Origin: a virus
IMG/VR virus record: IMGVR_UViG_3300009151_000211
Location: 1-34,698 of that record
Length of the DNA: 34,698 nucleotides
Strand: one strand, 5' to 3'
A program made the translations under genes and the position numbers. Position 1 is the first letter of the stretch; each line of letters begins with the position of its first letter. Below the pieces are notes generated by a model, which saw only the letters and a list, made by a program, of their open reading frames with translations, did no database searches and had not been told where the DNA came from. Shown here in pieces: positions 24,400 through 30,585 of this stretch.

Positions 24400-25038
24400 T
24401 TAATACCCTTGGCTGTAAGGATTAGGCATCCTGCGCGTGTAAGTGCCTACCAACACGTTCTGGACCTTCTTGATATACTCATTCTTGAAGATCTCGGACT
24501 CGCCGTAAGACTGCTCTTTGTATTTAGCGGTGTGGCAAGCGTAATAGGCAACCGGAGAGGTCCACGGGTCTGGAATGGGATCTACGTCCGACGTGTTGAC
24601 CAAAGCTATTGGCTCGATAACCGTGTCGATTTCCATCGAATAGACCTGATCTGGGACCGGCCCAAGGTAAAAGGTCTGCGGGCCATACATCGTAAAAGCA
24701 ATCGGACGCCCGATGTAGTTCTGCCAATAGCGAAGCTGTGCATTAAAGTCCGACCACGCCAAATAGCGCAGCGGAACGCGGCTGTTGCCCCAGTAGAGGT
24801 TAATATTCAAGATATCCATCGTCTGCGCGCCTTGCGGCATAGATGCAAACGTATAAGTCTCTTGATTGGTAACCGTATTCAACATCTGAATGGTGCGCAG
24901 GCAACCAGTATCGCGCACAAGGCGATTTCTCGCCTCATTGATGTAATCGGTTAACTCACCGGTCGAGTAGAAGTTGGAGTTAGCGTCGTGCAGTAGGCGC
25001 TGGCACTGCGTAATGTAGTTCTGAAGCGTCGTGGACAT
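24400..25038 (-). CDS. Head-tail adaptor / tail tubular protein A-like (212 aa)
   Basis: The product (LQNYITQCQRLLHDANSNFY, GELTDYINEARNRLVRDTGC, PLRYLAWSDFNAQLRYWQN, PIAFTMYGPQTFYLGPVPDQ, HTAKYKEQSYGESEIFKNEY) has the helix-then-beta layout of adaptors that join portal to nozzle (T7 gp11 and P22 gp4 types). Good ribosome site GAGGATGG before ATG 25038. Located between the capsid block and nozzle. Confidence 0.85.
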   Translation of the reverse strand: MSTTLQNYITQCQRLLHDANSNFYSTGELTDYINEARNRLVRDTGCLRTIQMLNTVTNQETYTFASMPQGAQTMDILNINLYWGNSRVPLRYLAWSDFNAQLRYWQNYIGRPIAFTMYGPQTFYLGPVPDQVYSMEIDTVIEPIALVNTSDVDPIPDPWTSPVAYYACHTAKYKEQSYGESEIFKNEYIKKVQNVLVGTYTRRMPNPYSQGY

Positions 25039-26225: not shown

Positions 26226-27242
26226 TTAAATCGAAAGGCTGTTGAAGCCGGTGACTTTGGTCATCGAACGCGGCTTGGTATTAACCAACTCCGCAATCAT
26301 GAGGACCGCACCGACGTAACCAATCTGCCAATTTGGCAGAGTGGATTCAAAGCCCGTAAACACAAACGAACCCTGCTCATGGATATAGAGCGACAGGTAG
26401 TTGGTGTTCAGGAAGTAGACCGTGCCTTCAGGGCAATACGGGTCCGGGTAAACCGGAACGCCAGCAACCATGAGTGCGCGGAACGCCGCCTGCGGGCCGT
26501 TGGAATCGCTGTCAAAGCCGTGACCCGGCGTGATGACATATTGCTCCTGACCAACGTAATCCTGCGCGAGCAGCGTCCAGGTGCCAAAGCCGCAAACCGC
26601 AAAGGTCGGGACTTCAGCGCCGTTCTTCACGGTGCCGGAGATGTATTGCAGGACGTTCTGACGGGTCGGGTTAACCGAACCAGCCGTGTACACCTTAGAA
26701 CGCCACCAAGTGTTCTGAGTGGTCGAACGGGTGATATTGCCGTAGGTGGCGGTGCCAGTGCCATCATCAACCGCAGCAGGCAGTCCAATGAACTGCTGAT
26801 TGTTGGTCGTGTTGGTGTAAAGCGCCGTCGCCATCGCATCCATCATCACGTTGGTCGCATCGTTCATGCGAGCCTCGATGAGTGGGATAATGGCGTGATC
26901 CTGCTGAACTGCGCCTTCCATGCCAAGGAACGGCACCGGAGCAATCATCAGCTTCAGGTTAAATTCAGCGTTGAATGCGCCCTGCTGGACGGACGGCTGG
27001 CTGAATGAACCGCTGTAGTCAGACCACTGAGCGTTGACAAACTGCGAACCCTGCACTGGCACGGTCACAGAAGAAACACCGCCAGAAGCAACCTGACTGT
27101 TAGAAATCAAAGCCGCAAGAAGCGGCGTCGAGTTGTAGATCTGAACAACCAGCTTCGGGATAAACGCACGCCGTGTGACATAAGTCAGCTCGGTGTACTG
27201 CGTCGAACCCGTCGCCGGAAGAATGCCACCACCAATAGGCAT
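26226..27242 (-). CDS. Major capsid protein (HK97 fold)
   Basis: A 338-residue protein. TRRAFIPKLVVQIYNSTPLL at the N-terminus, DHAIIPLIEARMNDATNVMM with the long spine-helix pattern, and C-terminal VPVYPDPYCPEGTVYFLNTN plus LSLYIHEQGSFVFTGF are typical of capsid proteins in this phage group. It follows a scaffold-like gene and precedes small head proteins. CGGAGATTAAACC precedes ATG 27242. Forms the icosahedral shell. Confidence 0.9.
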   Translation of the reverse strand: MPIGGGILPATGSTQYTELTYVTRRAFIPKLVVQIYNSTPLLAALISNSQVASGGVSSVTVPVQGSQFVNAQWSDYSGSFSQPSVQQGAFNAEFNLKLMIAPVPFLGMEGAVQQDHAIIPLIEARMNDATNVMMDAMATALYTNTTNNQQFIGLPAAVDDGTGTATYGNITRSTTQNTWWRSKVYTAGSVNPTRQNVLQYISGTVKNGAEVPTFAVCGFGTWTLLAQDYVGQEQYVITPGHGFDSDSNGPQAAFRALMVAGVPVYPDPYCPEGTVYFLNTNYLSLYIHEQGSFVFTGFESTLPNWQIGYVGAVLMIAELVNTKPRSMTKVTGFNSLSI

Positions 27243-28585: not shown

Positions 28586-28617
28586 AAGGGGGAATATATT
28601 TTACATCCGTCCCCCTT
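28586..28617. repeat. Perfect 8-bp inverted repeat
   Basis: AAGGGGGA (28586-28593) pairs with TCCCCCTT (28610-28617) across a 16-base A+T-rich loop. Could form an RNA hairpin in the late transcript or mark a protein-binding site. Confidence 0.45.
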
Positions 28618-28662
28618 AGCGGACGGTTCGTTCCCAGCAAACGGGCTAAACCCGTCTGTTAG

Positions 28663-28695
28663 TTACTTCCGGCGGTGCTTACGGCCACGAGCCAT
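28663..28695 (-). CDS. Arg/Lys-rich micro-ORF A (10 aa)
   Basis: Encodes MARGRKHRRK and stops TAA. The ribosome site AAAGGAGGATTTACC before ATG 28695 is near perfect, far better than expected by chance in a spacer. The peptide is a paralogue of micro-ORF B (pattern M-x-R-G-x-K-x-x-R). Its charge suggests DNA or RNA binding, or a capsid-associated peptide like the Arg-rich J protein of microviruses; this is inference. Confidence 0.55.
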   Translation of the reverse strand: MARGRKHRRK

Positions 28696-28746
28696 GGTAA
28701 ATCCTCCTTTCCACAAAAGAGTGTTGTCCCCTGCATCTGCCATCAC

Positions 28747-28788
28747 TTATCGGCTGCGACGGCGAGCGCGCTTACTGCCACGATACAT
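28747..28788 (-). CDS. Arg-rich micro-ORF B (13 aa, or 45 aa from 28884)
   Basis: Encodes MYRGSKRARRRSR ending TAA. GAAGGTGATTTC precedes ATG 28788, resembling the site of micro-ORF A (AAGGAGGATTT). The first DNA codons also match (TCGTGGCnGTAAGC). The same frame is open upstream to an ATG at 28884 (45 residues), which has no ribosome site, so I prefer the short form but cannot exclude the longer one. Confidence 0.5.
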   Translation of the reverse strand: MYRGSKRARRRSR

Positions 28789-28891
28789 GAAATCACCTTC
28801 TTCAGCTACGTTCCATGCGGCGCGTATCCGGGCGCGGCGTGGAAGTGCGATTTGAAGATACTCTATATTCCAGGTTCGCGCCATTTCGTTC

Positions 28892-28918
28892 AGAGTTCAA
28901 CTGCGCAGTTTGAACTCT
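28892..28918. repeat. 27-bp near-palindrome after the portal gene
   Basis: Arms AGAGTTCAACTGC and GCAGTTTGAACTCT pair over 13 bp with a single bulged T. No T-run follows on the minus strand, so it is not an intrinsic terminator. An RNA processing site or operator is possible. Confidence 0.55.
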
Positions 28919-28950
28919 AGGTTGATCACCGCGTGGCGATTGATCGGCCA

Positions 28951-30585
28951 TTATTTTGCCTGCTTGGGCTTGCCAGCACCGCTGGGAGGCGGCGGCTGAG
29001 CAGCGGCTTTAGCCTCATTCTTTTTCAGCTTGTCTTTCAACAATTGCTTCATAGGAGGCTCCAGAAGATCTAGCAGGCTCTCTTTATCAATAGCACCAGC
29101 CTTGAAAAGATTAAACGCCAAAGTGCGTAAATCTTCCATAAAAATTGGGCTGTTGGAATGTGCGTCTACCTTGACCGTAAAGTTCTTTGTAAACTGTTCT
29201 GCGATGAACTCAGAACCCTCAGCATCGCGGAACACCGTATCATCATCCATCTGCATCAGCCGCAGATAAAGTGTCGCCATCTTCTCAAGCGCATCCTCAA
29301 CGACAAGAGCACGCTTCTTTGCGCGGGAAGAACCCAACCTCGCCAATTGCGAAGCATGGCCAGAAGAACGAACTCCAGACTCGCCGTGACCAGATAGAAT
29401 GCTGCTGATACCAGAAGCTTCAGCAAACATAGCGTCGATCTCGCCAATTTCCTTGTAAAGGTCCGGCGGCATCTGCGGCGCAAGTTTTTCTACCTTTGAA
29501 TTGGGCATGTCGGTAGAAATCAAACCACCGGCACGATTGAGCGCAAAATTCTTTTCATCCAAGATGCCAGTGAATCCCATCAAAGCTGTCGGCGGATTCA
29601 CTTGTTTAGACAACAGGTCCAGGATCTCGCCCATGCGCTTGTTGCGCATCTCCTGAAGGTAGACAAGGCGCGACACCTCCGATTGCCCCCAATAATAATC
29701 ATACTGAGGATTTGGGTTGATGTGGATAAAAGGCAACTCGCCCTTGAGGAAGATGGATTTGTTGGAATCTTCGTTCCACAACTCTCGGTCGTAAATAATG
29801 ACGCCCGGCTCGGCAATTGTCACAATCTGATAGTCTTGAGTCTCATCGTTGTAGACGTAAAGTTCCCGCATCTCGATTGTGTCTTCAGCAACCTGAGGCC
29901 GCATCCGGTTTATGCCGGAGAGGTCTAGATTCACGTTCCCGTAAATTGTAGGATTGCTTTGAGACATAATGATTCGGTTGACGCCGTTAGGCACTTCAGT
30001 GGGTGCGTGAAACGACGATGATATACGCTTCATCAAATGCTCACGCTTTGGGTGCCTGAACAGATTCCGGGCTAGTTCGGACTTGGTGATGTAGTAGGTC
30101 TGGCACACAGCCTCTTGGCGATCTGTAAACGGCACGTCCTCGCGCAGCACGCCCATCGCGCCGGGCTCAACCATATATGGAGTCACTCCTCCAGGTCGGC
30201 GCACCAGTTTTACAAACGTGCAACCAAACACCAAAGACCACGTAAGGGCCATGCTGAAGATGTTGTCAGCGTTTGTGGCAGACCACTCATCATTCAGAGC
30301 TTGAGTCAAAACCGGGATCTTGCTGTGTTCCACTTCTTTGACAGAGGCACCTAGCGCAATAGAAAACCGGGTCTGGTCCGCGCTGTAAAGGAACGAAACA
30401 AGCTGGTCGATGTGCGGGTAAATTTTGTTGTAGTGCGCCGGGCTTTCGTCTGGACCTGAACCAAACAGGAAAAAACTTCTCAGGGAAACATAATCTCCCT
30501 TTCTCTCGTTTTGCGAGACGTAGCATTTGTCAGCAAGATCTAGGTAGAAGAACTCTCGCTCATCGGCGTTGGACGGGATAATCAT
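28951..30585 (-). CDS. Portal protein
   Basis: A 544-residue protein with portal hallmarks: DADLADKCYVSQ-like N-terminus, YPHIDQLVSFLYSADQTRFS, FSMALTWSLVFGCTFVKLVR, LPFIHINPNPQYDYYWGQSE, LVYLQEMRNKRMGEILDLLS, SGVRSSGHASQLARLG. These match the P22/podovirus-type portals that form the dodecameric DNA gate. A Lys/Ala/Pro-rich C-terminus follows. Start overlaps the previous gene (ATGA). Downstream of the terminase block as usual. Confidence 0.9.
   Translation of the reverse strand: MIIPSNADEREFFYLDLADKCYVSQNERKGDYVSLRSFFLFGSGPDESPAHYNKIYPHIDQLVSFLYSADQTRFSIALGASVKEVEHSKIPVLTQALNDEWSATNADNIFSMALTWSLVFGCTFVKLVRRPGGVTPYMVEPGAMGVLREDVPFTDRQEAVCQTYYITKSELARNLFRHPKREHLMKRISSSFHAPTEVPNGVNRIIMSQSNPTIYGNVNLDLSGINRMRPQVAEDTIEMRELYVYNDETQDYQIVTIAEPGVIIYDRELWNEDSNKSIFLKGELPFIHINPNPQYDYYWGQSEVSRLVYLQEMRNKRMGEILDLLSKQVNPPTALMGFTGILDEKNFALNRAGGLISTDMPNSKVEKLAPQMPPDLYKEIGEIDAMFAEASGISSILSGHGESGVRSSGHASQLARLGSSRAKKRALVVEDALEKMATLYLRLMQMDDDTVFRDAEGSEFIAEQFTKNFTVKVDAHSNSPIFMEDLRTLAFNLFKAGAIDKESLLDLLEPPMKQLLKDKLKKNEAKAAAQPPPPSGAGKPKQAK

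Follow-up and report, generated by a model that had tools for sequence, protein, structure and literature searches.

Do the two very short arginine- and lysine-rich reading frames between the portal and head genes of an uncultured phage encode peptides, and what would these peptides do? The window, by which we mean the whole analysed stretch of DNA, is a 34,698-base virus record from an uncultured phage with its late genes on the minus strand (Table 1). Matches to PF23899 and PF24175 exceed the curated cut-offs and identify a portal and an adaptor of the SU10 type, as in SU10-like podoviruses. The structural proteins of the window are mostly acidic or neutral, and the portal, scaffold-like and capsid proteins are acidic. 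The Pro/Met-rich protein, which has no match in PHROG or Pfam, is scaffold-like by its position and composition only. The spacer between the portal and scaffold-like genes is 417 nt long and forms the largest gap of the late operon; the next largest is 211 nt, and the other gaps checked there do not exceed 39 nt. The spacer contains, in this order, a 49-aa ORF, micro-ORF B, micro-ORF A, a hairpin, and pseudoknot II. The 49-aa ORF is unannotated and has no match in PHROG or Pfam; it is open in nearly all relatives as a 49–57-aa protein with a conserved DQPR / YRV motif.

Table 1 Features of the portal–scaffold spacer and of the neighbouring late genes in the window.
Feature	Position	Strand	Basis or remark
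Portal protein	28951..30585	(-)	Pfam SU10_portal; upstream gene of the micro-ORF spacer
49-aa ORF	28802..28951	(-)	Starts on the portal stop codon (TAATG); upstream neighbour of B
Ribosome site of B, AAGGTG	28794..28799	(-)	
Micro-ORF B (type 1), MYRGSKRARRRSR	28747..28788	(-)	Type-1 family MY(K/R)...KR-RK-RR in relatives
Ribosome site of A, AAAGGAGG	28703..28710	(-)	7 nt before ATG
Micro-ORF A (type 2), MARGRKHRRK	28663..28695	(-)	Counterpart in nearly all relatives; in-frame purifying selection
Hairpin just after the stop of A, CAGACGGG-TTTAG-CCCGTTTG	28638..28658	(-)	Sequence
H-type pseudoknot II, behind A	28588..28626	(-)	S1 CCGTCC/GGACGG, S2 GGGGG/CCCCC, A-rich loop
Pro/Met-rich acidic protein, 166 aa	28036..28533	(-)	First large gene downstream of the spacer
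Major capsid protein	26226..27242	(-)	PHROG 9953, E 1.9e-37
SU10_adaptor match	24400-25038		Pfam

Two micro-ORFs in the portal–scaffold spacer

The first-pass annotation of the window had proposed two Arg/Lys-rich micro-ORFs in this spacer, and both are present exactly at the positions listed in Table 1, each with a ribosome site. They are the only ORFs on either strand of the whole window that pass a filter requiring an ATG, a ribosome site, at least 45% K/R, and 8–18 codons. Dinucleotide shuffling of the spacer (n = 20,000) produced one filter-passing ORF in 0.2% of the shuffles and two in none. The AAGGAG-type ribosome site of A is kept across relatives, and the counterpart of the ribosome site of B is a near-perfect AAGGAGGTGAT in L019–L034.

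A and B had been regarded as recent duplicates because they share the 14-mer TCGTGGCnGTAAGC. The 14-mer matches at 13/14 positions in the window and at best at 8/14 and 9/14 in the nearest relatives, and the first and last micro-ORFs of one genome resemble each other to about the same degree as do pairs drawn from separate genomes. A recent duplication was therefore rejected, and the micro-ORFs are better described as two types. Type 1, the first ORF, mostly begins with MY(K/R) and ends with RR, whereas type 2, the last ORF, mostly consists of M(A)RK-type repeats. Duplication does occur in the family, since some clades have gained a third micro-ORF. The alternative 45-aa reading of B was also discarded, because its frame is closed by stops 0–7 codons upstream in the close relatives L010, L012, L002, and L011.

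Distribution and selection

Relatives were gathered by portal-based searches of IMG/VR and GTDB genomes, reaching down to 41.5% portal identity, and 128 distinct portal–scaffold spacers (portal identity 41–100%) were compared. All except two of these spacers (126 of 128) hold one to three Arg/Lys-rich ORFs of about 10–17 codons, each with a ribosome site. By the filter, two micro-ORFs are present in 83 spacers, three in 13, one in 30, and none in 2, so that 96 of the 128 contain two or three copies. One of the two spacers without a filter-passing ORF, that of L163, encodes a divergent version of 20 aa that is preceded by a ribosome site. The other belongs to L167, a MAG contig from an Alphaproteobacteria bin with a portal identity of 64%, and it is the only relative seen without any micro-ORF; the function is therefore dispensable or replaceable in L167. 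In this natural loss, the 49-aa ORF leads directly into a promoter-like sequence and the scaffold-like gene.

The same filter found nine ORFs in 1.68 Mb outside the spacer, compared with about two per 400 nt within it, so that the rest of these contigs is about a thousandfold poorer in ORFs of this kind. Two of the nine are genuine family members located further downstream. The micro-ORFs are also carried by the two GenBank genomes of the group, MW202825 and MW202753, which are metagenome-derived and the sole relatives with a similar portal in the phage collection that was searched. The expectation that standard gene callers skip them was borne out, as both genomes are annotated with wrong-strand hypothetical proteins across the micro-ORF spacer (MW202825, L081, 5279-5539; MW202753, L082, 4740-5038).

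A scan of 2.9 million IMG/VR viral contigs for the combination of pseudoknot and peptide yielded 112 stretches, and the 79 loci analysed first all had a window-related portal, capsid, or terminase. When the peptide-only scan and the remaining loci were considered, this was the case for 111 of 113 loci among the matches listed, and the two exceptions were fragments of about 1 kb. Since the scan loci carry these window-related genes, the micro-ORFs appear to be an old, almost universal trait of one phage clade; the peptide-only scan covers at least 120 matches and is thus compatible with rarer occurrences outside the clade. The window resembles SU10/phiEco32-type podoviruses in its matches to Pfam SU10_portal and SU10_adaptor, but in phiEco32, with its related portal type, the gap behind the portal gene measures 9 nt and there is no micro-ORF between portal and scaffold. 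A looser scan of Hydrogenobaculum phage 1 (33% terminase identity), without the ribosome-site filter, gave scattered K/R-rich short ORFs and no clear family member.

The first-pass annotation had suggested that the micro-genes are selected, and this stood up to comparison. They occupy the same place in essentially every relative, and the signs of decay that would speak against selection, frameshifts and stops, were looked for in the relatives and not found. The pN/pS ratio calculated from 118 nearest-neighbour micro-ORF pairs is 0.21 (bootstrap 0.17–0.25) when the coding frame is read, whereas the two alternative frames give 2.1 and 2.6. Of the 98 amino-acid changes, 24% exchange a basic for a non-basic residue or the reverse, compared with about 63% expected from random single-base changes, whereas K–R swaps make up 16% instead of about 5%, an approximately threefold enrichment. 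On this comparative evidence, the micro-ORFs are almost certainly true genes.

The 107 distinct peptides contain 34% R and 29% K (63% K+R), with A, G, and S forming most of the remainder, a composition biased by their selection at 40% K+R or more, which does not in itself exclude acidic residues. D, E, L, F, P, and W are absent from their 1271 residues. The peptides thus lack acidic residues and almost lack large hydrophobic ones; tyrosine is the only aromatic residue seen, mostly at position 2 of type 1, and apart from this conserved Tyr2 there is no hydrophobic capsid anchor. Seven or eight basic residues are present in 95 of the 107 peptides (89%), notwithstanding lengths from 10 to 17. These counts leave out more distant members that were found afterwards, among them divergent forms such as MQRKMLRYARPSRR. 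Arginine is encoded by CGT/CGC in 90% of cases in the micro-ORFs and by CGA/AGA/AGG in 2%, compared with 66% and 13% in the portal genes, which suggests high expression of the micro-ORFs. The comparison shows that the predicted peptides are under selection, that charge is their conserved property, and that their genes are linked to the head gene block.

RNA structures around the micro-ORFs

Many relatives, including L081, L082, L165, L166, L174, and L309, carry an H-type pseudoknot (pseudoknot I) directly upstream of the last micro-ORF. It has the form S1, UAU, GGCUGCN, S1', A-rich loop, N'GUGGCC. In 79 distinct sequences, 97% of the cells of stem 1 are paired, compared with 77% when partners are shuffled, and 99.8% of stem 2 is paired, both figures being somewhat favoured by the fitting of the rows to the structure. 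Positions of stem 1 are each occupied by several pair types. The last pair of stem 2 is U-A, A-U, C-G, or U-G, and its tandem U-G/G-U is invariant in the 79 sequences. In distant relatives (portal identity 41–53%; L166, L174, L309, and others), a promoter-like TTGACA element, the pseudoknot, the ribosome site, the micro-ORF, and a terminator-like hairpin form a compact unit. Pseudoknot I is absent from the window's own clade, and a short recurring motif of this clade (about GGGGACAACACTC; window 28746-28711, minus strand) takes its place between B and A.

Hairpins similar to that behind A were recognised by eye after the micro-ORF stop in several relatives. Pseudoknot II is followed by TTGTTCTTTT in the window and is present behind the last micro-ORF in the window's clade and in others. 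A strong H-type fold was found in this position in 84% of 74 distinct spacers, compared with 12% of shuffles, although some of these folds differ from pseudoknot II as described here. In the canonical cases, both stems vary in step and pairing is kept. A U-tract is often present behind pseudoknot II, and in relatives a TTGACA-type promoter as well. Searches of Rfam 15 gave no match at the gathering threshold in the window and none at E ≤ 1 in eight relatives. A known RNA in the spacer was rejected, because Rfam was negative for both pseudoknots.

Possible functions of the peptides

The best mechanism that we can propose, with a probability of roughly 45%, is that the peptides are nucleic-acid-binding polycations that are packaged or associated with packaging. 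It is put forward because of the composition of the peptides, the conservation of charge instead of sequence, the codon choice, and the position between the portal and capsid genes, which is constant. The micro-ORF products would be free polycations of 10–17 residues with a charge of about +7 to +8 each. Judging from codon choice and strong ribosome sites, they would be made in quantity during the head-assembly phase and would bind nucleic acid by charge alone. They may become attached to the phage DNA while it is being packaged or beforehand, offset some of its charge or compact it, and finally reside within the head or at the packaging machine. The pseudoknot before the last micro-ORF might stabilise a short mRNA or tune its translation, and might perhaps be bound by the peptide itself. 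The lack of a hydrophobic capsid anchor and the absence of micro-ORFs from L167 speak against a packaged polycation. In the usual view, a motor drives the packing of DNA in tailed phages, and metal ions and polyamines supply the counter-charge. Motor-packaging tailed phages have been set apart from viruses that balance the charge of the genome with that of the capsid (PMC7096446), and a polycation is therefore not generally needed in such phages.

By function, the micro-ORFs would be a variant of the small polycationic viral peptides, of which two kinds offer a comparison. Protein J of phiX174-type microviruses is a small, highly basic, DNA-binding protein encoded in a phage head gene block; it is about 24–38 aa long, and its aromatic C-terminal part seats in the capsid of ssDNA T=1 virions. 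The micro-ORF peptides resemble J in being small and highly basic and in their location in the head gene block, and genome binding in the head is the proposed shared task. In contrast to J, they are 10–17 aa long, belong to a dsDNA motor-packaging phage, and are encoded by several gene copies; a J-type aromatic C-terminal capsid-binding part was not found in the 107 distinct peptides, which lack F, W, and L. The adenovirus core peptide Mu (protein X), likewise very short and highly basic, has 19 aa, is present in 100–300 copies per virion, and helps to condense dsDNA (PMC7998265), so that a short basic peptide can be a core component. A viral protease releases Mu from a 79-aa precursor. Mu has no homology to the micro-ORF peptides, each of which has a start and a stop codon of its own in the relatives that were examined; the frames upstream close there at variable distances. 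The peptides would work like J or Mu and be unrelated to them by descent.

The peptides could instead act on RNA. Gene 32 of phage T4 has a leader with an H-type pseudoknot and is repressed autogenously by gp32, and short arginine-rich peptides commonly bind RNA. In a similar manner, the micro-ORF peptides may bind the phage's own pseudoknots and control late messages, which we consider unlikely. Pseudoknot I, with its covariation and invariant tandem U-G/G-U, is located directly upstream of the last micro-ORF, and other clades have a second covarying pseudoknot downstream of the ORF. As in gene 32, an H-type pseudoknot precedes the ribosome site of a phage mRNA, near a putative nucleic-acid-binding product. 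However, the peptides persist both in the window's clade, where pseudoknot I is missing, and in the many genomes that have pseudoknot I but not pseudoknot II. K/R and G/A/S exchanges are tolerated, unlike in sequence-specific arginine-rich motifs. The gene 32 leader is unrelated in sequence and structure, the product here is a micropeptide and not an SSB, and repression is only a proposal.

Attenuation is less probable than RNA binding. The micro-ORFs would then encode leader peptides, and the speed of translation through their Arg/Lys codons would set the formation of the terminator-like hairpin or of pseudoknot II, and hence the head-gene mRNA. The succession of micro-ORF, strong ribosome site, and hairpin or terminator is indeed that of amino-acid operon leaders; a U-rich tract follows pseudoknot II in the window's clade, and several distant relatives have a terminator-like hairpin behind the ORF and a structural gene soon after it. 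The last observation keeps this explanation alive. It is weakened because K and R replace each other freely, whereas codon sensing should not allow this, and because the arginine codons are the common CGT/CGC, not slow ones. A run of codons for one regulating amino acid, as in attenuators, is not seen, and K–R exchanges are enriched. Furthermore, genomes contain one to three different ORFs, and the structure is followed in many relatives by a new TTGACA-type promoter, from which the head genes could be transcribed without read-through.

The fixed position between the portal and scaffold-like genes, together with the acidity of the portal, scaffold-like, and capsid proteins, would also suit assembly cofactors that bind acidic faces of one of these proteins and nucleate the prohead without contacting DNA. 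This is slightly less probable again, since a different structural gene follows in distant relatives in which the peptides remain, and conservation of charge alone would be expected for a partner that is a polyanion, for instance nucleic acid, more than for a protein surface with a defined shape. That the micro-ORFs are chance ORFs, or by-products of selection on RNA structure or ribosome loading, is very improbable and already contradicted: very short ORFs are usually noise and structured RNA surrounds these, but purifying selection is confined to the coding frame, such ORFs are rare elsewhere in the contigs, and frame and charge are kept through changes of length.

Building on the packaged polycation, we speculate, with the odds somewhat against it, that the micro-ORFs represent a clade-wide new class of genes, namely free polycation micro-genes of 10–17 codons that occur as one to three non-identical copies and, in many members, have a dedicated pseudoknot leader. 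Their products would serve as counter-ions or core peptides for motor-driven dsDNA packaging, and the pseudoknot would represent a novel class of RNA that the peptide itself may read. We know of no precedent for this architecture, and a search of the open-access literature found no report of such peptides. If the proposal is true, genetically encoded free polycations would be a new answer to the charge problem, nearer to adenovirus cores or protamines. The comparison also shows that abundant uncultured phages possess conserved genes of 10–13 codons, which is below most annotation sizes; in virion proteomics based on trypsin, their products would be digested into fragments too small for detection. 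The two covarying pseudoknots that accompany the micro-ORFs make their regulation testable.

Two further features were noticed. A 61-aa basic ORF (MELFKPRGVGAIRRP...; window 28028-27843, minus strand) occupies the gap between the Pro/Met-rich protein and a coiled-coil-like protein, and counterparts by position are annotated in MW202825 and MW202753. The TTGACA-type promoters upstream of the scaffold-like gene in L026, L055, L098, and L100 overlap short inverted repeats, such as TTTGTAA...TTACAAA, which resemble repressor or activator operators.
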